NCBI GenBank assembly: GCA_003139095.1
Contig: PLHW01000041.1
Coordinates: forward strand, 62,261-126,260
Length of the DNA: 64,000 nt
Direction: 5' to 3'
Source: Acidobacteriaceae bacterium
GTDB lineage: Bacteria > Acidobacteriota > Terriglobia > Terriglobales > Acidobacteriaceae
In this document: one piece after another, positions 1,237-57,990 of the stretch
Layout: every line of letters starts with the position of its first letter
Numbering within the stretch: the stretch's first letter is position 1
Made by a program: the position numbers and the translations under genes
The notes under the pieces: generated by a model
Told to the model about the DNA's origin: nothing
The model's database searches: none
Seen by the model: only the letters and a program-made list of their open reading frames with translations

Positions 1237-1548
1237 ATGAGCAGCAAGACCAGTTGGAACGTCTACCGTACGCGCTTCCTGGTGCGCGCCCGGCAACTCA
1301 CCGAACCGCTCTCATTCACCGACCCGTTTGGCCGCGATCACTTCGGAAGGCCCGGCGATTACCTCATCGAAACTTCCGACGGCATTCGCCGCATCGCAAC
1401 CCGGGCTTTTTTCGAAGACATCTACGTGCCGCTGGCACCCGTGCAGTTCGTACAGCAGAACGCGAATAGCCAGGAACGCCGCGTTTCCGTTTCCGTGACC
1501 GCGCCCGCATCCCATCCCACCGGCGAGCGGCGTCAAGCCATCGCATGA
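1237..1548 (+). CDS. Small conserved-looking hypothetical protein
   Basis: A 103-residue protein beginning MSSKTSW. The central part (FGRPGDYLIETSDG, then a hydrophobic AFFEDIYVPL stretch) resembles small cytosolic acidobacterial proteins in which a PGDYL motif precedes an FF-x-Y segment. I know no function for them. There is no signal peptide or membrane helix. The frame is open upstream to 964, but the ATG at 1237 fits the charged N-terminus better than the low-complexity upstream sequence. The ribosome-binding site is weak (GTGAAAG). Confidence 0.5.
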   Translation: MSSKTSWNVYRTRFLVRARQLTEPLSFTDPFGRDHFGRPGDYLIETSDGIRRIATRAFFEDIYVPLAPVQFVQQNANSQERRVSVSVTAPASHPTGERRQAIA

Positions 1549-1760
1549 AGTTCCTTGCCAGAATTCGCAGGACAGAAGTTCGGGATTCCCCCCTGGGTTT
1601 GCCGAGCACGGAGTACAACCTTGGCGCTGCTTTGCGGAACTCGTTGTATTCAAAATGTGTTTCGAGCCGCCGGTCGCCAAGGCGCGATCCTCGACCGGCA
1701 GGCTGATTCTTATTTCGGTACCCTTAGCACACGCGGGCCACAATATATTGCGATTTTCCC

Positions 1761-1789
1761 TTGACAGACACTACCGGTGGTTGTACGTT
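1761..1789 (+). promoter_or_regulatory. Strong sigma70-like promoter in the gap before nrdJ
   Basis: TTGACA at 1761-1766, a 17-bp spacer, and TACGTT at 1784-1789 preceded by TTG. Transcription would start near 1796, about 730 nt before the nrdJ start codon, and would pass the TTCGAA cluster and the small frame at 2138. Either nrdJ has a very long leader or this promoter serves a short transcript. Confidence 0.5.
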
Positions 1790-1962
1790 AAGCATCCCAA
1801 GGGTAGTTTTCATCCGCCTCGACGCGAGGCTGGAACCCAGAACTTCGGAAGCGCTCCGAGTTGAGGTGACTTTGAGTCTGCTTCTTTTTACGGGAAGCCG
1901 TCCCCCGGCGAGTGGATGGTATTTTGCGGTGGCTCCCTCCCCCCGGGGAGTTCATCAACCAA

Positions 1963-1998
1963 GTTCGAACGTACCAGGTTCGAATGCTCACGTTCGAA
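1963..1998. promoter_or_regulatory. Three GTTCGAA boxes forming an inverted repeat
   Basis: GTTCGAA occurs at 1963-1969, 1978-1984 and 1992-1998 (spacing 15 and 14 bp). The outer copies form a perfect 9-bp inverted repeat (TTCGAACGT ... ACGTTCGAA) around 17 bp. The geometry is that of an operator or a hairpin. It lies about 170 bp after the promoter at 1761, so as RNA it would be in the leader. The rest of 1549-2137 shows nothing else I can name. Confidence 0.35.
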
Positions 1999-2137
1999 TG
2001 TTTAGGACCCAAGGGTTGTAAGGCCGTTTTATGTCATTGTTCGACGATGAGGCTGCTCACTCTGGGTGGCTTCATCTCGAAATGTCATTCGCTGTACGTT
2101 TCTGTTGCGCGATCTCTACTGTTTTGCAGGAGCCCCC

Positions 2138-2326
2138 ATGGAAACTCTAATTCAACTTGTCGCCGCCTCTTTTGCGCGGCACGGCATTGAGTGCCCGGAC
2201 AGCGCCCAGCACCCGGCGCGCATAAGTCCGAACTCGCCTGCCCCGTCGGTCGCGGTTTCGACCGATCTCGCCGCCCTCCCCGAACACGGGTTTCGTAAGA
2301 AATCGGAAGACGATCTCGCTCCGTAA
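2138..2326 (+). CDS. Possible small protein upstream of nrdJ
   Basis: A 62-codon frame starting METLIQLVAASFARHG, with GCAGGAG five bases before the ATG at 2138. The first 20 residues could form an amphipathic helix; the rest is Pro/Ser-rich and looks poorly structured. No family was recognised. It may be a leader peptide of the long nrdJ 5' region or a chance frame; the ribosome-binding site is the only real support. Confidence 0.25.
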   Translation: METLIQLVAASFARHGIECPDSAQHPARISPNSPAPSVAVSTDLAALPEHGFRKKSEDDLAP

Positions 2327-2528
2327 AGCGTCTGCGTCCTCGCCGGGAAACTGGGAGCGTCTTCGGGGGCAAGAATGCAGTTTGCATCTTGCTCGGGTGT
2401 GTCGAACGAGCGCGCCGTGGCGTAAGGACAACGGAGAATCACCCCGGCTCATAGGGGCCACGCAGCCGCCATTTCATGATCCATGCAACATCGATTTCAT
2501 TCCGCCATCATCTAATTAGGAGCACGAT

Positions 2529-5500
2529 ATGCCAGAAGTTCAGCAGAAAATGCAGCAAAAAGACGAAATCAAAACGCCGTCCGCGACCGCCAATAATAAG
2601 AAGAAGGCCCCCGGCCTCACCTTCCGCCGCCTCTTCACCAAGCCCGGCGTCAATCCCTACGACGACGTCGAATGGGAACTGCGCACCGCCGCCATCACCG
2701 ACTCGCAGGGAGGCATAATCTTCGAGCAGAAAAACGTCGAGGTCCCCAAAGACTGGTCCATGACCGCGACCAACATCGTCGCCAGCAAATACCTGCACGG
2801 TCGCATGGATACCGGCGAGCGCGAAACCGGCGTCCGCCAGCTCGTTTCCCGCGTCGCCGAAACCATTCGCGACTGGGGCATGAAGGACGGCTACTTCCGC
2901 ACTAGCGATGATGCCACCGCCTTCCACGACGAGCTCGTCCATCTCCTCATCCGCCAGTACGCCGCCTTCAACTCGCCCGTCTGGTTCAACGTCGGTTGCG
3001 ATCGCATCGAGCCCAACTCCGACGCGACCAACTGGCACTGGAACGCCGCCACCCAGCAAGTCGAATTCGGCGTCACCGGATACACCCGCCCGCAGTGCTC
3101 GGCCTGCTTCATCAACTCGGTCAAAGACTCGCTCGACTCCATCCTCACCTTGGCCAAGACCGAAGGCATGCTCTTTAAATGGGGCAGCGGCACCGGCACG
3201 AATCTCTCCCCGCTGCGCAGCTCCACCGAGACTCTCTCCGGCGGAGGCACCGCCAGCGGCCCGCTCAGCTTCATGAAAGGCTTTGACGCCTTTGCCGGCG
3301 TCATCAAGTCCGGAGGCAAGACCCGCCGCGCCGCCAAGATGGTCATCCTCAACATCGACCATCCCGATGTCGTCGACTTCATCGAGTGCAAGCAGAAAGA
3401 AGAAGCCAAGGCTCACGCCTTAGTCGCCCAGGGTTACGACGGCTCGCATCCCGACTCCGACGCCTACAGCTCCATCTTCTTCCAGAATGCCAATAACTCG
3501 GTGCGAGTAACCGACGACTTCATGGTCAGCGTTCTGCGCGACACGGAATTCTCCACGCGCTCCATCGTCGACGGCCGAGTCATCAACACTTATCCGGCGA
3601 AAGAGCTAATGGCTAAGATCTCCGAAGCCACCTGGCATTGCGGCGATCCCGGCATGCAGTACGACAGCACCATCAATCGCTGGCACACCAGCAAGAACAC
3701 GAGCCGCATCAACGCCTCCAACCCATGCTCCGAGTACATGTTCCTTGACGACTCCGCCTGCAACCTGGCAAGTCTGAACCTGCTGAAGTTCGCTCCCAAC
3801 GGCACGTTTGACGTGGAAGCCTATCGCCATGCCGTCGACGTCGTCATCACCGCGCAGGAAATTCTGGTCGATAACGCCGGCTATCCCACCGAGATGATCG
3901 GCCGCAACTCGCATGATTACCGCCCGCTCGGCCTCGGCTATGCCAACTTAGGCGCGCTGCTTATGGCCGCCGGCCTTCCGTATGACTCCGACGCCGGCCG
4001 CGACTATGCCGCCTGCGTCACCGCCATCATGTGCGGACAAGCCTATTTACAATCCAGCCGCATTGCCGAACTCTGCGAGCCCCTGGCTCCGGCAACCAGC
4101 ACGGTTCAAACCCGCCTCGGCGTCACCACTGCCGACGATATGCCCGGAGCAGCCTGCCCCGGGTACTATCTCAACCGCGAGCCCTTCTTAGACGTAATAA
4201 GAATGCACCGCGCCAGCGTTAACAACATTAATAAGTCGAATGTTCCGGCTTCCATCTACGAGGCCAGCAAGCAATGCTGGGACGAAGCTCTCTCCAGCGG
4301 CGAAAAGCACGGCTACCGCAACAGCCAGGTCACGGTGCTTGCTCCCACCGGCACCATCGGCTTCTTCATGGATTGCGACACCACCGGCATCGAGCCCGAC
4401 CTGGCTCTTATTAAGTACAAGAAGTTAGTCGGCGGCGGCATGATCAAAATCGTCAATAACACGGTCCCCAGCGCTCTCTTCAAGCTCGGCTACACGCACG
4501 AGCAGACCGACGCCATCGTCTCCTACGTCGACGCCACCGGAACCATCGAAGGCGCGCCGCACATCAAGGACGAGCATCTCGCCGTCTTCGATTGTTCCTT
4601 CAAGCCGGCCAAGGGCACGCGCTCCATTCACTACATGGGCCACTTAAAAATGATGGCTGCCGCCCAGCCTTTCATTTCCGGAGCCATTTCGAAAACCGTC
4701 AACCTCCCCAACGCCGCCACGGTCGAAGATATCTCCGAAGCCTACATCCAGGCCTGGAAGCTCGGCCTGAAGGCGGTTGCCGTCTATCGCGATGGCTGCA
4801 AGCAGTCGCAACCGCTCTCCGCCGCCGGCACCAAGACCGCGCAGAGTGGCCCCGGCGTCTCGCCTGCAAATGTGGCGACGGGTGGCTCGCCCGTCCCCGA
4901 CGACGACCTCAACGCTCCGCCCCGCGCCGTCCGTCACCGCCTGCAGGAAGAGCGCATGTCGGTCACGCATAAGTTCAACATCGGAGGCCATGAAGGTTAC
5001 ATCACCGTCGGCCTCTATCCCAACGGAGAGCCGGGCGAGTTATTCATCAAAATGGCCAAGGAAGGTTCCACCGTCTCCGGCCTCATGGACAGCTTCGCCC
5101 TCGCCGTCTCCATCGCTCTCCAGCACGGAGTTCCACTGAAGCTCTTCTGCGATAAATTCGCGCACACCCGTTTCGAGCCGGCTGGCTGGTCCAGCAATTC
5201 CGAAATCGGCTTTGCCAAGTCGATCATGGATTACATCTTCCGCTGGCTCCAACTGCGCTTCCTCACCGGACAGCAGCAGTTCCTCTTCGACAACCTGCGC
5301 CCGAAAAGCATGGGAGACGCGAGCCACGTCGGCCGCGCCCCAGTAGCCGAAGGAATAGAAGAGGACCTAAACGCCGACACAGGGTCTCGAACGACCAACG
5401 ACCAACGACTAACGACCGGAAAAATCCACGCAGCCGACGCACTGGCCGGAATGATCGACCTAGGCGACGCCCCCACCTGCCACGTCTGCGGCAGCATCAT

Positions 5501-5561
5501 GGTCCGCAACGGCAGTTGCTATAAATGCATGAGTTGCGGCAGTACGTCAGGATGCAGCTAA
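2529..5561 (+). CDS. nrdJ: Adenosylcobalamin-dependent ribonucleotide reductase (class II)
   Basis: A 1010-residue class II ribonucleoside-diphosphate reductase, which converts ribonucleotides to deoxyribonucleotides using a B12-generated thiyl radical. Diagnostic motifs are NPCSEYMFLDDSACNLASLN (Cys at about 400 and 411) and APTGTIGF with DCDTTGIEP. After the barrel comes a TSCPD-type domain (about 810-900), then a C-terminal Cys tail from residue 984 (CHVCG, CYKCMSCG) that would relay electrons or bind zinc. The ATG has TAGGAGC just upstream. The linker between the TSCPD domain and the Cys tail contains a 7-bp tandem repeat (5388-5419), read as a Thr/Asn/Arg-rich stretch. No cobalamin riboswitch or NrdR box was seen upstream. 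No nrdAB is present in the window. Confidence 0.95.
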   Translation: MPEVQQKMQQKDEIKTPSATANNKKKAPGLTFRRLFTKPGVNPYDDVEWELRTAAITDSQGGIIFEQKNVEVPKDWSMTATNIVASKYLHGRMDTGERETGVRQLVSRVAETIRDWGMKDGYFRTSDDATAFHDELVHLLIRQYAAFNSPVWFNVGCDRIEPNSDATNWHWNAATQQVEFGVTGYTRPQCSACFINSVKDSLDSILTLAKTEGMLFKWGSGTGTNLSPLRSSTETLSGGGTASGPLSFMKGFDAFAGVIKSGGKTRRAAKMVILNIDHPDVVDFIECKQKEEAKAHALVAQGYDGSHPDSDAYSSIFFQNANNSVRVTDDFMVSVLRDTEFSTRSIVDGRVINTYPAKELMAKISEATWHCGDPGMQYDSTINRWHTSKNTSRINASNPCSEYMFLDDSACNLASLNLLKFAPNGTFDVEAYRHAVDVVITAQEILVDNAGYPTEMIGRNSHDYRPLGLGYANLGALLMAAGLPYDSDAGRDYAACVTAIMCGQAYLQSSRIAELCEPLAPATSTVQTRLGVTTADDMPGAACPGYYLNREPFLDVIRMHRASVNNINKSNVPASIYEASKQCWDEALSSGEKHGYRNSQVTVLAPTGTIGFFMDCDTTGIEPDLALIKYKKLVGGGMIKIVNNTVPSALFKLGYTHEQTDAIVSYVDATGTIEGAPHIKDEHLAVFDCSFKPAKGTRSIHYMGHLKMMAAAQPFISGAISKTVNLPNAATVEDISEAYIQAWKLGLKAVAVYRDGCKQSQPLSAAGTKTAQSGPGVSPANVATGGSPVPDDDLNAPPRAVRHRLQEERMSVTHKFNIGGHEGYITVGLYPNGEPGELFIKMAKEGSTVSGLMDSFALAVSIALQHGVPLKLFCDKFAHTRFEPAGWSSNSEIGFAKSIMDYIFRWLQLRFLTGQQQFLFDNLRPKSMGDASHVGRAPVAEGIEEDLNADTGSRTTNDQRLTTGKIHAADALAGMIDLGDAPTCHVCGSIMVRNGSCYKCMSCGSTSGCS
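5388..5419. repeat. 7-bp tandem repeat inside nrdJ
   Basis: Four and a half units of the form C(G/C/T)AACGA (CGAACGA, CCAACGA, CCAACGA, CTAACGA, CCGG). This is the same unit type as the intergenic repeats at 20196-20230 and 57866-57910. It is translated as part of an RTTNDQRLTT linker, so the frame is maintained. Confidence 0.8.
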
Positions 5562-5573
5562 GAAGGTCGCGAT

Positions 5574-5599
5574 GGGACAGCCGGCCTCTAGGCTGTCCC
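5574..5599. terminator. Hairpin between convergent nrdJ and the rhomboid gene
   Basis: GGGACAGCC and GGCTGTCCC form a perfect 9-bp stem with an 8-nt loop. It sits in the 53-bp gap between two convergent stop codons, so it may end both transcripts. No T-run follows on either strand. Confidence 0.5.
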
Positions 5600-5614
5600 C
5601 TGCGCCTCGGCAGT

Positions 5615-7051
5615 CTATTTCTTCGCGTTCAGCTCCGCGGCTTTCGCTCGCGCCTCATCCGCCTCTTTCTTCATTCCCTTTGTGTCGTAAACGGCGGCAA
5701 GCAGCTTCTCGTTGTCCGCATCGTCCCAGGCCTGCCGCTGCTTTAACAATGCGGCGATGGCATCGTCGGCCTGATTCAGTCGTATCTCCAGTACGCCAAT
5801 GTGGTAGTACACACCGGGGTATACCGAATCGATTTCCGCCACCCTTTGGTATTCCGCCAACGCCTCGGCAGCGCGATGTTCGTAAGCGAAAGCCTCGGCC
5901 ATCCCGGCATGTCCGTCGGCGCTGTCAGGATTGATTTTGAGGAGTTGGGCAAAAACCGTCTCCGCTTTCTGCGGCTGCTTCTGTTCAAGATAGACGAGCC
6001 CAAGCTGACGATAGGCGCGCTCGTCGCGCGGAGTCAGGGCGATCACCTGCCTCAACTCCGCGGCCGCACCGTCGTAGTCGCCCTTCGCAATATAAGCGTC
6101 GGACAGCGCTTCGTGAGCTGGGACGAAGTTCGGGCGCTCCTTGATCGCGTTCTTGAATTCCCGAATTGCCGCATCCGGATCGCCCGCTTTCAGCCGGTAC
6201 ATTCCGCTTTGTCCATGCGCAAGGTACGCGTGCGCGTGCGCCAGCCACAGCCCCCCGCCCCCAACCACCACCACGCCAACCAGCAACACGCCAACCCTGC
6301 GCACGATGGCGTCATGCTGCGGCGCAACGCGCGCAATCAGCGCGCCCAGAAGAAGTCCCATGACCAGGCCGCCGATGTGCGCTGCATTATCGGTGCGCGC
6401 AATGATCGCGCCAAAAAACAAGTTGTACCCCACAAACATCACTACGCTGCGCAACATGCCCGTTACCGCGGCCCGCGGCAGCGAGAACTCCCCCAGATAA
6501 AACGAGGCGATCAGCGCGCCGGCGAGCCCGAAGATGGCGCCCGAAGCGCCCACGCTGAGCACAAGGGGATTCCATACGATGCTCGCAATGCTCGCCGACA
6601 GTCCGCAGAGCAGATAAACGACGGCGAACGTCCAGTGACCATACACCGATTCCGCGAGCCTGCCCAAATCCCAAAGGCACCACATATTGAACGCAATGTG
6701 CAGCAGGCCGCCGTGAATAAACAGGCAGGTCACCAGCCGCCACCATTGCCCACTCACGGTATAAGGCCCATAATTTGCACCCCAGCCCACCAGCGCTAGC
6801 CCGGCCGGATTGCTGAGCATCGATTCGCCCAGCGCAAGCACCATGGCGATGAATACCGCGACGTTGGCGCCAAAGATAACCTGCGTGACGACCATCGAGG
6901 TCGACTGTCGGCGCAGCCACGGCGCTGTCTCCACGCGCTGATATTGAATATCCTCGCCGCGTTGCGCCGCTTCGTGCTGCTGGCACCACTGGCAAGTCTT
7001 CTTCAAGCTGAACGGAGGCAATTGCCGCCCGCACTGTACGCACTGCGCCAT
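5615..7051 (-). CDS. Rhomboid-family intramembrane serine protease with TPR repeats
   Basis: A 478-residue membrane protease. It begins with a zinc-ribbon-like segment (CVQCG ... CQWC, residues 4-25), followed by about six or seven membrane helices. The rhomboid core is visible: the WWRLVTCLFIHGGLLHIAFN segment, the catalytic Ser in GASGAIFGLAGA, and the catalytic His in AHIGG. A cytoplasmic or periplasmic tail of about 180 residues carries TPR repeats (for example PDAAIREFKNAI, and YLEQKQPQKAETVF in a later one), probably for substrate or partner binding. The start is placed at 7051 (MAQCVQCG). The upstream frame to 7084 would overlap glnS, which begins at 7072 on the other strand. Confidence 0.9.
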   Translation of the reverse strand: MAQCVQCGRQLPPFSLKKTCQWCQQHEAAQRGEDIQYQRVETAPWLRRQSTSMVVTQVIFGANVAVFIAMVLALGESMLSNPAGLALVGWGANYGPYTVSGQWWRLVTCLFIHGGLLHIAFNMWCLWDLGRLAESVYGHWTFAVVYLLCGLSASIASIVWNPLVLSVGASGAIFGLAGALIASFYLGEFSLPRAAVTGMLRSVVMFVGYNLFFGAIIARTDNAAHIGGLVMGLLLGALIARVAPQHDAIVRRVGVLLVGVVVVGGGGLWLAHAHAYLAHGQSGMYRLKAGDPDAAIREFKNAIKERPNFVPAHEALSDAYIAKGDYDGAAAELRQVIALTPRDERAYRQLGLVYLEQKQPQKAETVFAQLLKINPDSADGHAGMAEAFAYEHRAAEALAEYQRVAEIDSVYPGVYYHIGVLEIRLNQADDAIAALLKQRQAWDDADNEKLLAAVYDTKGMKKEADEARAKAAELNAKK

Positions 7052-54331: not shown

Positions 54332-54464
54332 TCAATACTTTACGTTCAAGTGTCTTATTTTGAATACTTTGCGGGCAAGAGCCGCGCAGAGACTGTCGTT
54401 TCGCCCAACTTAAGTCTAATTTTTTGAATACTTTGCCTATAAGTCATCTCGATTGAATACTTTG
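54332..54464. repeat. Repeated TTGAATACTTTG words next to the mobile element
   Basis: Exact 12-bp copies at 54360-54371, 54424-54435 and 54453-54464, plus a related TCAATACTTTAC at 54332-54343. The last copy ends 12 bp before the target-site duplication. The rest of the AT-rich 54104-54475 gap has no gene. Confidence 0.7.
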
Positions 54465-54483
54465 GAAGGAAATTCCTCCTAAC

Positions 54484-54509
54484 GGTAATAAACTAGTTGA
54501 CACACATGT
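54484..54509 (+). repeat. Left inverted end of the IS1595 element
   Basis: Begins GGTAATAAACTAGTTGAC and pairs with the complement of 57672-57697. It contains the transposase -35 box. The preceding 8 bp (54476-54483) are the left target duplication. Confidence 0.92.
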
Positions 54510-54525
54510 GCGCTTGTGGTATCGT
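54497..54525 (+). promoter_or_regulatory. Transposase promoter within the inverted end
   Basis: TTGACA at 54497-54502 and TATCGT at 54520-54525 with a 17-bp spacer; transcription would start at about 54532-54533, on the transposase ATG itself, giving a leaderless message. Confidence 0.55.
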
Positions 54526-54532
54526 TTTGGTT

Positions 54533-55552
54533 ATGGAAACGAAAGCGATGCCCGAGCCGAAAACGCTGCAAGGGGCGATTGTCTATTTCTCCGACCCTGA
54601 CCGTTGCTTTGCCTATGCCGTCAAGCTGCGCTGGCCGGATGGCGTAATTGTGTGCCCACGCTGCGGAGCGGCAAAGAACTCGTTTATCAAGACGCGCAAG
54701 CTCTGGTTCTGCTACGGCTGCAAAAAGCAATTCACGGTCAAGGTCAAGACGATCATGGAAGACTCCCCGATAACTCTTGACAAGTGGATGGTTGCGTTTT
54801 GGATGCTGGCGAACTGCAAGAACGGAATCAGTAGCTATGAACTTGGAAAAGCAATTGGAGTTACGCAGACGACGGCATGGTTTATGCTCCAGCGCATCCG
54901 TGAAGTGATGAAGGGGCGCACGTGGGCCAGCAAGATCGGCGGCGAAGGCAATGAGCTGGAAGCGGACGAAACGTTTGTTGGCGGAGTCACAAAGAACATG
55001 CACAAGGGCCGTCGCGCAGAAGTCGAAGGCAAAGGCCCGTATAAGAACAAAACGATTGTGCAAGGTATCCTTGACCGCAATCTCCGCAAGGTCCGCGCTA
55101 CTGTCGTTCCGAATGTGACCCGCGAGACTTTGCAGAATCAGATTCTCAAGAACGTGAAGTTCGGCAGCACCGTTTACACGGATAGCGCGGTTGGATACGA
55201 CAATGGATTGCAGAGCCGTTTCGTGCATGATTTCGTCAACAAGACTGAGGCTTATGTAAAGGGCCGCGTACACGTCAACGGCATGGAGAATTTCTGGTCG
55301 CTGCTTAAGCGATCTCTGCGCGGAACCTACGTCGCTGTGGAGCCTTTTCATCTGTCTCGCTATGTTGACGAACAAGTATTCCGTTACAACCACCGCAAAG
55401 ACGGCGACCGCAAGCTAAACGACTCCGACCGCTTTGCCGCTGTAATGGCTCAAGTCCTCGGTCACCGTCTCACCTACAGCGATCTAACGGGCAAGAGTGA
55501 TTCGCCACATCACGCGCCGACAGGGGCGGGGGAAACGGCAGTCCCGTTCTAA
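54533..55552 (+). CDS. IS1595-family (ISXO2-like) transposase
   Basis: A 339-residue DDE-type transposase. A zinc ribbon (CPRCG at 41-45 and FCYGCKKQF) comes first, then helices for end recognition, and the catalytic core: D145 in LEADETFVGG, D217 in VYTDSAVGYD, and E252/N253 in GMENFWSLLKRSLRGTY. The C-terminal RYVDEQVFRYNHR is typical of the family. It looks complete. The ATG at 54533 is preferred over an upstream start because the family begins near the zinc ribbon and the promoter ends here. Confidence 0.95.
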   Translation: METKAMPEPKTLQGAIVYFSDPDRCFAYAVKLRWPDGVIVCPRCGAAKNSFIKTRKLWFCYGCKKQFTVKVKTIMEDSPITLDKWMVAFWMLANCKNGISSYELGKAIGVTQTTAWFMLQRIREVMKGRTWASKIGGEGNELEADETFVGGVTKNMHKGRRAEVEGKGPYKNKTIVQGILDRNLRKVRATVVPNVTRETLQNQILKNVKFGSTVYTDSAVGYDNGLQSRFVHDFVNKTEAYVKGRVHVNGMENFWSLLKRSLRGTYVAVEPFHLSRYVDEQVFRYNHRKDGDRKLNDSDRFAAVMAQVLGHRLTYSDLTGKSDSPHHAPTGAGETAVPF

Positions 55553-55704
55553 TCGCCCTTGTCGGATTTCGGCGGCTTCTCTTGAGAAGCGGTTTTCTTA
55601 GGCCGCTTCTTTTTCTTTTGCACCGGAGCCTGTAGAATTGTGGCCGCAAATCGTTCGAAGTTTGCAAACGCCTCCGGCCCTTCGATGTATTCAGGTTGTT
55701 TCAT
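55549..55704 (-). CDS. 51-residue basic small protein of the IS1595 element
   Basis: A short minus-strand frame starting MKQPEYIEGPEAFANFERF, with a Lys/Arg/Pro-rich tail (KKKKRPKKTASQ). Its stop overlaps the transposase stop by 2 bp, and its ATG abuts the next gene's ATG within a single CATATG. Similar short acidic-then-basic frames accompany IS1595-type transposases in other bacteria, to my recollection. It could help regulate transposition or bind DNA; the function is unknown. Confidence 0.7.
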   Translation of the reverse strand: MKQPEYIEGPEAFANFERFAATILQAPVQKKKKRPKKTASQEKPPKSDKGD

Positions 55705-56505
55705 ATGGACTATGTTACTCGCCAGTTCATTAACCTCACGAAGAAATTTCGCAGAGAATTGCCAAAGCTAGTTAATCTTCTGCATCACGCTATCCAGAAG
55801 CACACCGAAGCCATACATTCCGCAAAGAAAAGCACCGAACAGAAATGGGATGTTCAACCAAGATGGCTCGACCCAGTTCTTTCCAAGTACCAAGAGACGG
55901 TGGAAGAAAAGAAGGCTAGCGATGAGCGACATTATGCCGTACAGAATTCGATTCGATGGGCTACGTGGTCTGCTGTTATCGCCGCCATCATATACGGCAC
56001 TATAGCCGGATTCCAATGGCGTGATGCGAACAGAAACTTTGCCATCGATGAACGAGCCTGGGTCGGAATGACCGGCCAAACTATCGTAGCGATGAATAAT
56101 GAAGTCGTTGATGCCAGAATAGTGTTTACCAATACCGGCAAGACTCCGGCTCATCGGATACAGAAGTCTATGAGTGTAAAAATCGCCCCGCCGCCATTGA
56201 TTGATAAGCCTTCCGATAGCGACATAAGCGCACTCACTTTCATAGGCAGTTCTGTACTCAGCCCACAATCCAGCATGACTCTCAGTAGTCTTTCCAGCCC
56301 AGAACAAATGCTTGTCATGAAAAAGACTATGGCCAACTACTTGCCATTGATTGAGGCTGGAACGGAAATACTCTACTTCTTTGGGGAAATTAAATACGAC
56401 GATTCCTCTGCCCACTCTCGGCTCACAAAATACTGCGTCTTTGCTTACAAGACTGAAAAGGGATGGGGACTGGCAGAATGCAACGGGTTTAACGAAATGG
56501 ATTAG
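55705..56505 (+). CDS. Cargo: single-helix membrane protein of unknown function
   Basis: A 266-residue protein. The N-terminal 80 residues are charged and helical (possible coiled coil), then one membrane helix (about 83-103, WATWSAVIAAIIYGTIAGF). The rest carries DERAWVG ... and a FTNTGKTPAH motif. That pattern recurs in many bacterial membrane hypotheticals with no known function. The ATG at 55705 is taken because it directly follows the CATATG shared with the minus-strand small gene. The gene lies inside the IS element. Confidence 0.75.
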   Translation: MDYVTRQFINLTKKFRRELPKLVNLLHHAIQKHTEAIHSAKKSTEQKWDVQPRWLDPVLSKYQETVEEKKASDERHYAVQNSIRWATWSAVIAAIIYGTIAGFQWRDANRNFAIDERAWVGMTGQTIVAMNNEVVDARIVFTNTGKTPAHRIQKSMSVKIAPPPLIDKPSDSDISALTFIGSSVLSPQSSMTLSSLSSPEQMLVMKKTMANYLPLIEAGTEILYFFGEIKYDDSSAHSRLTKYCVFAYKTEKGWGLAECNGFNEMD

Positions 56506-56658
56506 CAGTCCTGTCACGGCAGGACGATTAGACCCTTGACGCACAGCTAGTTCGTTCCACTTGAGTCCGTCACGGCTAATTAGCAGCCTGACCATAGAAA
56601 CATCTATACCATTATGAGACACAAGACCGCGAGAAACAGAGGAGAAAAGAATTTTCAG

Positions 56659-57483
56659 ATGAACCTTGTCGTTGCTGTCATATTTACCTCCCTCTGCCCC
56701 TTGATGGCAGTCGCGCAAGATGGAAGTGTCGTCGTTGCCAGCTGGTATCAAGACGAGATCGCGATTGCTGCGGACAGTCGGGGAAGCGGCCCGCATTCTT
56801 ATTCTGACACTAGCTGTAAAATCGCCGCATTCGGCAATAAATTGATATTCGGCGCGGCTGGGCGGAGCAAACCTCCGGACGAGTCCACGTCTTTCTGGGA
56901 CATCTATACAGCGGCTTTCAACCACTTTGTCTGGATTACCCGCGAAGGTGCAACGGATCATCTTGCGGAAAGAGTTGCGAGCGCGTGGGGAGAAGACGTA
57001 AAAATCAAGTTTGAACTGGCTGGCTTGTCCTCGATCCAAGGGCTTGACGAGGACGGTATTGCTAGCGGAATTTTTGCTGACTTCGAAAAGGACGGGACGC
57101 TTCTTATCGTGGTCACGTCTGTTGATTTTAAGGAGAGCTTCGTCTATCCCCGAATCACTGTGAACACAGTTCCCCTTCATCCGGGGGATGGGGACGCATT
57201 CTTTGTCGGAAAAGGGGAAGTGATTACCGAAACAAATGCCGCCAAAACGCCGCGTGGCAGCGAATGGTTCAAGGAACTTCACCGAAGAAGTGATGGGCCT
57301 AACACCGATAGAGCAACGGAAGAGGCTATTGCTTTCGTCGATCTGACCATCAGGAATCTCCCAAAGATGAGAACTGATTTTGATGGGGTTCCATTCTCCG
57401 TTGTTGGGCCGCCGATCTCTGCTGTTCGACTGGTGCGCGGCAAGGGCACTAGATGGATTGCAAAGGGCATTTGCCAACCCTGA
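56659..57483 (+). CDS. Cargo: secreted protein with proteasome/Ntn-hydrolase-like N-terminus
   Basis: A 274-residue protein. A signal peptide (residues 1-20, ending AVAQ) is followed by GSVVVASWYQDEIAIAADSR and CKIAAFGNKLIFGAAG. That strand pattern (VVVAxxxxDxIxIAADSR ... KIxxxxxxLIFGxAG) looks like the first strands of proteasome beta-type and HslV Ntn hydrolases, though an N-terminal Thr is not seen. A frame extension upstream to 56614 is possible. AGGAG lies about 15 bases before the ATG. Function unproven. Confidence 0.7.
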   Translation: MNLVVAVIFTSLCPLMAVAQDGSVVVASWYQDEIAIAADSRGSGPHSYSDTSCKIAAFGNKLIFGAAGRSKPPDESTSFWDIYTAAFNHFVWITREGATDHLAERVASAWGEDVKIKFELAGLSSIQGLDEDGIASGIFADFEKDGTLLIVVTSVDFKESFVYPRITVNTVPLHPGDGDAFFVGKGEVITETNAAKTPRGSEWFKELHRRSDGPNTDRATEEAIAFVDLTIRNLPKMRTDFDGVPFSVVGPPISAVRLVRGKGTRWIAKGICQP

Positions 57484-57671
57484 CAGTAGAAGCAGATGTC
57501 TCGAAGCAGCCAGTTGACTATCGGCGGCAGAATCACGATGATGATCAGGTCGTGCATCAAGTGTATTAGCGTGTTCATGGCGCTCTCCATGAACATGGCT
57601 AGAGAGCACGACTGAATTAGGAATTGATGCGGAAACGCTGCCCTGTCGGGTCCCATTATGACCCGTAGGCA
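57484..57671. other. 3' part of the element before the right end
   Basis: No convincing gene. A perfect 8-bp inverted repeat (GTTCATGG ... CCATGAAC, 57573-57594) could end the cargo transcript. A minus-strand frame with a hydrophobic stretch (MNTLIHLMHDLIIIVILPP) exists here but has little else to support it. Confidence 0.4.
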
Positions 57672-57697
57672 ACATGTGCGTCAACTGTGTTATTGCC
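57672..57697 (-). repeat. Right inverted end of the IS1595 element
   Basis: On the minus strand it begins GGCAATAACACAGTTGAC, matching the left end at about 21 of 26 positions. The following 8 bp (57698-57705) repeat the left target duplication exactly. It also has a TTGACG/CATAAT pair with an 18-bp spacer that could fire inward. Confidence 0.92.
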
Positions 57698-57865
57698 CTC
57701 CTAACCCAATGATTCCAATAGACCGGTAGGGGAGGGGGGTAGGGGGTACGGACCGGTGCAGACCGGGGTAAAGTCCGGGCACATCCATGGCAGCTCAAAA
57801 CCAAGACGCACTGATGACAGTTCGGGTAGGAAAGCAAAATTGGGTCTAGGGAAAGAACGAGCTCC

Positions 57866-57990
57866 CGAACGACTAAGGACGAACGACCAACGACCGCCGA
57901 CCGACAACGAGCGACTCTATAGCTTGATCGGCTCGAAGCTCGAGGCTCGAAGCTCGTAGCTCGAAGCTCGAAGCTCGAAACTCGAAGCTC
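57866..57990. repeat. Two adjacent 7-bp tandem repeat arrays before the flavoenzyme gene
   Basis: First array (57866-57910): six units of CGAACGA/CCAACGA type, like 20196-20230. Second array (57931-57990): eight and a half units of GCTCGAA, running to 3 bp before the next ATG. The second array fills the place of a Shine-Dalgarno. The gap from 57706 to 57865 holds nothing else clear. Confidence 0.85.

Follow-up and report, generated by a model that had tools for sequence, protein, structure and literature searches.

Overview of the element

The window analyzed here is a stretch of 64,000 nucleotides of an Acidobacteriaceae bacterium (assembly GCA_003139095.1, contig PLHW01000041.1, positions 62,261 to 126,260). 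At positions 54484-57697 it contains an intact element of the IS1595 family of insertion sequences (IS), read directly from the sequence, that holds two cargo genes next to its transposase. On balance we consider it probable that this is a cargo-carrying element built from a transposition engine and a cassette slot, that it targets a dispersed repeat, and that its predicted exported proteasome-like hydrolase may act as a trait in conflicts at the cell envelope. The features of the locus (strand and basis of the assignment in brackets) are:

54426-54483 (+): left part of a split dispersed intergenic repeat (copies from related genomes align through the insertion point)
54476-54483 (no strand): left copy of the target duplication, CTCCTAAC (direct reading)
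54484-54509 (+): left terminal inverted repeat, GGTAATAAACTAGTTGACACACATGT (direct reading, end comparison, end profile)
54536-55552 (+): IS1595/ISXO2-type DDE transposase, 338 aa (Pfam, NCBIfam)
55549-55704 (-): small basic protein, 51 aa, whose stop overlaps that of the transposase by 4 nt, CTAA (iterated profile)
55705-56505 (+): cargo gene 1, single-pass membrane protein, 266 aa from ATG (direct reading, family comparison)
56659-57483, frame from 56614 (+): cargo gene 2, predicted exported proteasome-beta-like N-terminal nucleophile (Ntn) hydrolase (profiles, alignment)
57672-57697 (-): right terminal inverted repeat, reverse complement GGCAATAACACAGTTGACGCACATGT (direct reading, end comparison, end profile)
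57698-57705 (no strand): right copy of the target duplication, CTCCTAAC (direct reading)
57706-57746 (+): right part of the split dispersed repeat, with a G-rich run (copies from related genomes align through the insertion point)

The two inverted ends, GGTAATAAACTAGTTGACACACATGT and GGCAATAACACAGTTGACGCACATGT, have 21 of 26 positions in common. For inverted ends adjoining a perfect 8-bp repeat, the score was 19/24 at the observed place and 15/24 in the best of 60 first-order shuffles of the region. With an end profile derived from the group's 32 other members, the ends reached 28.8 and 27.2 bits, against 17.7 for the best of 200 shuffles. The transposase matches PF12762 (1.4e-34), PF12760 (2.2e-13) and the NCBIfam IS1595 model (1e-47). 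A DDE transposase with an N-terminal zinc ribbon, an 8-bp duplication and imperfect inverted ends are what characterizes the IS1595 family, and the genes unrelated to transposition found between the ends are those of a transporter IS (tIS). The element is a tIS of this family, an already known kind reportedly described by Siguier, Gagnevin and Chandler in 2009. The initial annotation of this DNA had recognized the ends, the perfect duplication CTCCTAAC, a full DDE transposase and three further genes inside the ends; direct reading, the Pfam and NCBIfam matches and the shuffles confirm the element, and the three genes (51 aa on the minus strand, 266 aa and a 289-aa frame) are all present.

In its own genome the element as a whole occurs once. 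A plasmid search with the whole element as DNA gave no match, and with the transposase 86 records were retrieved, with identities below 60%. Rfam found only tRNA in the 64-kb window.

A fixed module and an exchanged interior

Relatives of the transposase are present in 19 of 24 genomes of the genus (E 0.001) and in 98 of 399 genomes of the class (1e-60), the own genome being included. We examined 60 of these loci, mostly top-scoring (40 from the genus list and 20 from the class list), and refer to loci by numbers preceded by L. Both ends and a duplication could be delimited in 41 of them (24 and 17 from the two lists), the duplication being 8/8 in all but L171 (7/8); the remaining 19 were dropped because a convincing second end was not found, often at the end of a contig. 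Together with the window element they form a set of 42, ranging from 1702 to 4274 bp (median 2434), and in 40 there is at least one frame of at least 100 aa beyond the transposase (the exceptions are L072 and L073). Related cargo-bearing elements elsewhere, which the initial annotation had suggested searching for, do therefore exist in the form of these 41 further elements with both ends.

The clearest view of how such elements are built comes from the four nearest ones, the window element, L060, L167 and L168, in which the transposases of the latter three are 75-82% identical to that of the window. Their DNA is 74-77% alike from base 1 to base 1221-1256, and the similarity breaks off at the homologous start codon of the small gene or at most 9 bases past it. 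Beyond this border the four share only the terminal repeats of ~26 bp (BLAST, 1e-3). In the window the border reads CATATG, the ATG of the small gene abutting the ATG of gene 1. Judged from these alignments, the left end, the transposase and the small basic gene are a fixed module and the rest is exchanged between elements.

The small gene was found in 32 of the 42 elements with an iterated profile that, having been iterated on short basic sequences, could drift; a firmer count is the exact 4-nt overlap of its stop with that of the transposase (CTAA, CTAG, TTAG or TTAA), seen in 22 of the 42. The overlap is visible by eye in L177 and L179 too, both of which the count missed. Its frequency and its fixed overlap indicate that the small gene belongs to the transposition module, so that its earlier listing as a cargo peptide has to be replaced by that of a core gene. 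The protein may be a regulator or a partner of the transposase.

Exchange is also apparent over larger distances. L083 and L084, from two genomes, are 92% alike and sit in different target sequences. Both have two cargo genes in common with L090 (79 and 86% DNA identity between L083 and L090), rearranged, although the transposases of L083 and L090 are only 36% identical, which points to exchange of cargo between lineages. As a separate observation, L177 (element 1426-5127) contains an internal right end that scores 33 bits, suggesting that two elements, with two DUF3800 genes, overlap or lie in tandem here.

Insertion into a dispersed intergenic repeat

When the flanks of the element are joined, they form an intergenic repeat of ~95 bp, dispersed in many copies throughout the genus, that the insertion has split. 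Nineteen of 20 repeat copies fetched from genomes of the genus span the insertion point, and five carry CTCCTAAC. By their sequence these intact copies are natural empty sites, none of them orthologous. The empty site with a single CTCCTAAC proposed initially has thus been found as uninterrupted repeat copies, and the orthologous site was not among the matches listed (at most 15 candidates scored per genome).

The preference for this repeat extends to the sister elements. A repeat profile of 18 sequences, with the window's own flanks among them, matched (at least 12 bits) at 17 of the 41 other insertion sites. Among control stretches taken from these loci the figure was 5 of 2564 (Fisher 1.2e-28), and among intergenic-like ones, which lack long frames, 4 of 459. 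The duplication lies at positions 51-58 of the repeat, in either orientation, in the window, L060, L061, L068, L069, L072 and L180, and one base off in L168; the mirror-image positions of L094, L183 and L170 come from weaker alignments and were not counted as the same site. Insertions cluster at one fixed position within a repeat that is dispersed between genes, as is typical of IS targeting repetitive extragenic palindromic (REP) sequences. The center of the repeat is a short palindrome (12/20 pairs), by which it resembles REP elements, and its G-rich run, GGTAGGGGAGGGGGGTAGGGGG, could possibly form a quadruplex. Rfam had no match in the 20 intact repeat copies. A second dispersed, tandem-like repeat (GCTCGAAGCTCGAAG...) is located at ~57930-57990 and occurs at several places in genomes of the genus.

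Cargo of the sister elements

The 41 sister elements carry a very diverse cargo. Pfam identified DUF3800 in five proteins from four elements, a PIN domain in L088, Trypsin_2 in L093 (below the cut-off in L090) and CLP_protease in L097 (1e-17); another four (L080, L085, L086 and L182) were labelled DUF3800-like without a Pfam match at 0.01. One cargo gene of L183 (5734-6867) matches both RelA_SpoT (1.7e-16) and the PADLOC model PDC-S33 (2.3e-93). Cargo proteins of L090 and L097 match PDC-S45 (2e-14 and 2.5e-13), and further PADLOC matches were to RT-Protease_XI in L093 (1.2e-12), PycTM in L069 (4.6e-5), Cas2g in L068 (0.0016) and one more at 0.0023. We take the PDC names to stand for defence candidates. 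Altogether 7 of the 45 cargo proteins scanned (window gene 2 included, one DUF3800 protein of L177 excluded) match PADLOC at 0.01. Genes 1 and 2 of the window matched no PADLOC model, and the defence-type cargo of the sister elements makes a conflict role for them plausible by association only. The envelope defence proposed in the initial annotation would be a possible function.

Could the slot simply take up neighboring DNA lying before a usable right end, leaving an ordinary transporter IS with chance passengers devoid of a selected function? The diversity of the cargo, the 38 of 45 proteins that have no PADLOC match at 0.01 and the short or broken frames seen in some elements (L073) would all fit, but cargo families recur (the gene 1 family in 7 of 42 elements; DUF3800-like cargo in 8 of 42 by label, with Pfam at 0.01 in 4), and the same cargo genes accompany distant transposase lineages. 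In addition, four cargo proteins match PADLOC below 1e-11, which makes chance passengers less likely, and we regard them as an improbable explanation, if still one of the two better alternatives.

Three further observations concern individual sister elements. In L097 (element 1417-4096) the ClpP-like protease gene is convergent with another gene, whose long product shares 40% identity with the trypsin-like cargo protein of L090. L099 (element 1342-3478) carries a proteasome-like cargo (MTIGIGFTTGDAVILCADTQ...) with no signal-like start and below the Pfam cut-off (0.028). Finally, a recurrent cargo family that spans two distant transposase clades is shared by L089, L178 and L180 and, judged by eye, by L094, which lies in the genome of the window itself.

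The membrane protein and its neighbor

Gene 1 belongs to a family of eight proteins found in 7 of the 42 elements, L063 having two copies. They share a predicted membrane helix, which in most of them precedes R-[AP]-W/Y and a sequence resembling N-x-G-K-T-P-A. In a leave-one-out analysis seven of the eight were recovered at E <0.001 among 61 proteins (window 1.3e-17; L168 0.046). For L167 the frame scorer had picked the opposite strand, and we preferred the plus frame because it carries the gene 1 motif. None of the family models scanned (Pfam and NCBIfam included) accepted gene 1; PF21938 (0.0059) and HpsJ (0.081) stayed below their cut-offs and were rejected. One scan against IMG/VR, able to detect close relatives only, gave no relative, and a comparison with plasmids gave one weak match. 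The description of the mobile cargo as a one-helix membrane protein plus an exported protein, already put forward in the initial annotation, agrees with these data, export being a prediction.

Gene 1 is the only large cargo in five elements and is found together with gene 2 only in the window, where both are on the same strand, 108 nt apart by longest frame, and are predicted to be destined for the envelope. Such an arrangement would suit a single system in which the membrane protein anchors, inhibits or receives the exported hydrolase. A similar pair exists in L214, from another genus of the same family, where a 306-aa relative of gene 1 (5096-6016, +; E 3e-4 among 2307 frames) is located tail to tail with a gene 2 homolog (6035-6841, -), 18 nt away. 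This neighbor pair makes a joint system more likely and suggests that the two genes may work together at times. However, it is the only gene 1 relative at ~37 other places detected with the gene 2 profile (from 65 loci, many overlapping, with flanks mostly of 1.5 kb and many short), its orientation differs from that of the window, and the gene 1 relatives of six other elements all occur without a gene 2 relative. The co-occurrence of the two cargo proteins between similar ends, suggested as a check at the outset, is therefore not seen in any of these six elements, and what there is of it is the weak gene 1 relative of L214. Taking both sides together, a dedicated two-gene system appears doubtful.

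A predicted exported proteasome-like protein

Gene 2 is contained in a 289-aa frame, of which the 274 aa from the start at 56659 were judged by eye the likelier product. The N-terminus consists of a signal-peptide-like stretch, MNLVVAVIFTSLCPLMAVA, then QDG, and then SVVVASWYQDEIAIAADSRG, with a spacing between Ser1 and Asp17 as in proteasome subunits; the predicted nucleophile is Ser38 of the 289-aa frame. Homologs are sporadic, in 7 of 61 relatives, 13 of 396 genomes of the phylum and, with a wider profile, 30 of 298 genomes of the order (the genome of the window is counted each time, as are a number of matches that are weak or of another type).

A set of 25 homologs was chosen for alignment. 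Of these, 22 have Thr as the nucleophile and 3 have Ser; Asp17 and Lys33 are present in 25/25 and the oxyanion Gly (Gly47) in 24/25, while two cysteines are each kept in 24/25. The residue preceding the nucleophile is Gly in 14 and Ala in 11. The nucleophile is preceded by a hydrophobic stretch, the end of which is 3 to 13 residues away from it, and a signal-peptide-like start was recognized in 25/25, a figure that is partly the result of the choice made, since sequences that were broken, cut, of another proteasome-like type or with an unclear signal-like start were left out (L007, L008/L225, L009, L016, L021, L027, L227, L228, the second frame of L226, L019, L022-L024 and L026). In two of these, L016 and L027, the active-site pattern is present and a clear signal peptide is absent.

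Two gene 2 profiles, built from 14 and 25 homologs with overlapping membership, were compared with the PDB, and all of the 60 matches listed for each are proteasome subunits, BPH or HslV (best match 1.6e-4 and 2.8e-5, respectively). An hhalign comparison of the group with the HslV of these genomes gave a probability of 78 (E 1.8e-5). A Thr/Ser nucleophile with Asp17 and Lys33 in register and the profile relation to known members are the hallmarks of proteasome-like proteins, and by active-site pattern and profile gene 2 is one of them. The two kinds of residue before the nucleophile may correspond to two ways to free it, directly by signal peptidase (Ala-Thr) or through removal of a short propeptide (Gly-Thr/Ser).

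The possibility that the exported product of gene 2 has a different fold and shows the motif by chance, to which empty single-sequence searches and poor structure models lend some weight, is hard to reconcile with Thr1, Asp17, Lys33 and Gly47 all in register and with profiles that, among 60 matches listed, retrieve only proteasome-like chains; we consider it very unlikely. Less probable still is a separate, smaller mobile unit nested around gene 2, since the sequence at 56523 on which it would depend, 19/28 like the right end and accompanied by a 25-nt inverted repeat (I1), scores 6.5 bits with the end profile against 9.5 at the 95% level of shuffles, and a matching second end with duplication was not seen, so that this candidate was rejected.

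Outside the window the group was met in other surroundings. One homolog (L187:7074-7934, locus L006/L187) is part of a prophage, where it lies between the genes for tape measure and tail assembly and is read from the strand opposite to them. With the window's transposase as query, no IS1595 transposase was found near other gene 2 homologs in 23 loci or in L187-L228, and the best inverted ends with duplication around them were 15/24 with 7/8 (11 loci, without shuffles). Four scans of IMG/VR, in which only close relatives are detectable, gave no relative of gene 2 or its homologs; there was none of gene 2 among plasmids, nor of homolog L017 among phages and plasmids. In the open-licence literature we came across no account of a proteasome that is exported or located in the periplasm.

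Discussion

How might the element work? Its engine would comprise the left end, the transposase and the convergent small basic protein with overlapping stops; its slot would reach from the start codon of the small gene through the right end and be exchanged between elements. DDE transposition would produce the 8-bp duplication with a strong preference for the intergenic repeat of ~95 bp and frequent use of a single position within it, by which host genes would be spared. The product of gene 2 would be exported by the Sec pathway, lose its signal peptide and be cut at Gly-Ser, leaving a free N-terminal serine that, with Asp17 and Lys33, could catalyze reactions on peptides or amides, either within the periplasm or outside it. 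As a trait of conflict or exclusion at the level of the envelope, this would repay the host for keeping the element. The family, boundaries, modularity and target of the element, as well as the active-site pattern and the signal-peptide-like starts of the gene 2 group, are properties that the sequences themselves display.

Several observations weigh against this picture. At 5 of the 17 matching insertion sites the repeat is on one side only and not across the point. Exchange of cargo is not free, as indicated by the clustering of cargo labels on the transposase tree (27 changes against a shuffled mean of 31.7, with 0 of 200 as low; the labels were set partly by eye, 'RusA?' and 'HNH?' being guesses). 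Among IS1595 cargo the exported type is a rarity, detected by profile in 1 of 42 elements. Searched as a single sequence, window gene 2 stayed without a match in Pfam, NCBIfam, PHROG and PADLOC at the thresholds applied, and among nine homologs scanned PF00227 was below the cut-off in four and unmatched in five. The AlphaFold2 models of genes 1 and 2 are poor, with a mean predicted local distance difference test (pLDDT) score of 39.0 and 38.9, respectively; Foldseek with the poor gene 2 model returned proteasome or Anbu chains as the first 12, none at E <0.001, and the fold of gene 2 consequently rests on sequence profiles and this weak ranking.

The vehicle is of a known kind, and the features worth describing in it are the core small gene, the cassette border and the repeat target. 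It shows a simple IS as a vehicle of gene cassettes, with a fixed engine, a sharp border, traded cargo and landing outside genes. The surprising part is the proteasome-like cargo, with its predicted export. Proteasome homologs are regarded as cytoplasmic machines, and an exported group with an intact active-site pattern would, if true, represent a new place and mode of action, the signal peptide suggesting how the enzyme stays off until it is outside the cytoplasm. The cargo of the sister elements (RelA/SpoT-type, trypsin-like, ClpP-like, PIN, DUF3800), several near defence candidates, may make these elements a source of new acidobacterial conflict genes.

A broader and more speculative picture, which we put forward tentatively, is that the Acidobacteriota possess a large, sporadic group of exported proteasome homologs in which a signal peptide has replaced the propeptide. 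The Ala-Thr branch would be unmasked by signal peptidase and the Gly-Thr/Ser branch by a propeptide cut as in proteasome beta. They might be ATPase-free envelope hydrolases that act, in some cases together with a membrane partner, when the cell is in conflict with phages or rivals, and they might be moved both by prophages and by repeat-homing IS1595 cassette elements.

Comparison with known systems

The gene 2 homolog of L006/L187 is comparable to prophage morons in its location within a cluster of tail genes that are read from the other strand, whereas gene 2 of the window rides a transposon and not a prophage. PDC-S33, PDC-S45, RT-Protease_XI and PycTM of PADLOC are matched by sister cargo as single proteins, not as whole systems.

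REP-targeting IS include IS1397, ISKpn1, IS621, ISPpu9/10 and ISRm22, and the families named for them in the text seen of PMC1525189 are IS3, IS110, IS4, IS256 and IS5; a table in the same source gives 2/17 for IS1016 and 1/3 for IS1016C2, and IS1016 is described as a subgroup of IS1595 (PMC11092175). The window element has in common with REP-targeting IS the fixed place of insertion in dispersed intergenic repeats, but belongs to another IS family and carries passengers, which the main text of PMC1525189 does not mention.

Proteasome-like homologs comprise HslV, BPH, Anbu and connectase, together with 22 new groups, according to the main text of PMC8665760. The gene 2 group resembles them in Thr/Ser1, Asp17, Lys33 and Gly47, with a profile near proteasome beta, BPH and HslV. 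It differs in the signal-peptide-like start (25/25 chosen) and the two cysteines (24/25 each), and the main text of PMC8665760 does not mention signal peptide, periplasm, secretion, export, extracellular or membrane.

The closest relatives of the vehicle are the transporter IS, as IS1595 elements with passenger genes are called in the portions available of PMC3129680 and PMC7986276. They share with the window element the DDE transposase, the 8-bp duplication, the imperfect ends and the passenger genes. Compared with the tIS as presented there, the window element is distinguished by its conserved convergent small gene, the sharp boundary of its cassette and its insertion into a dispersed repeat.

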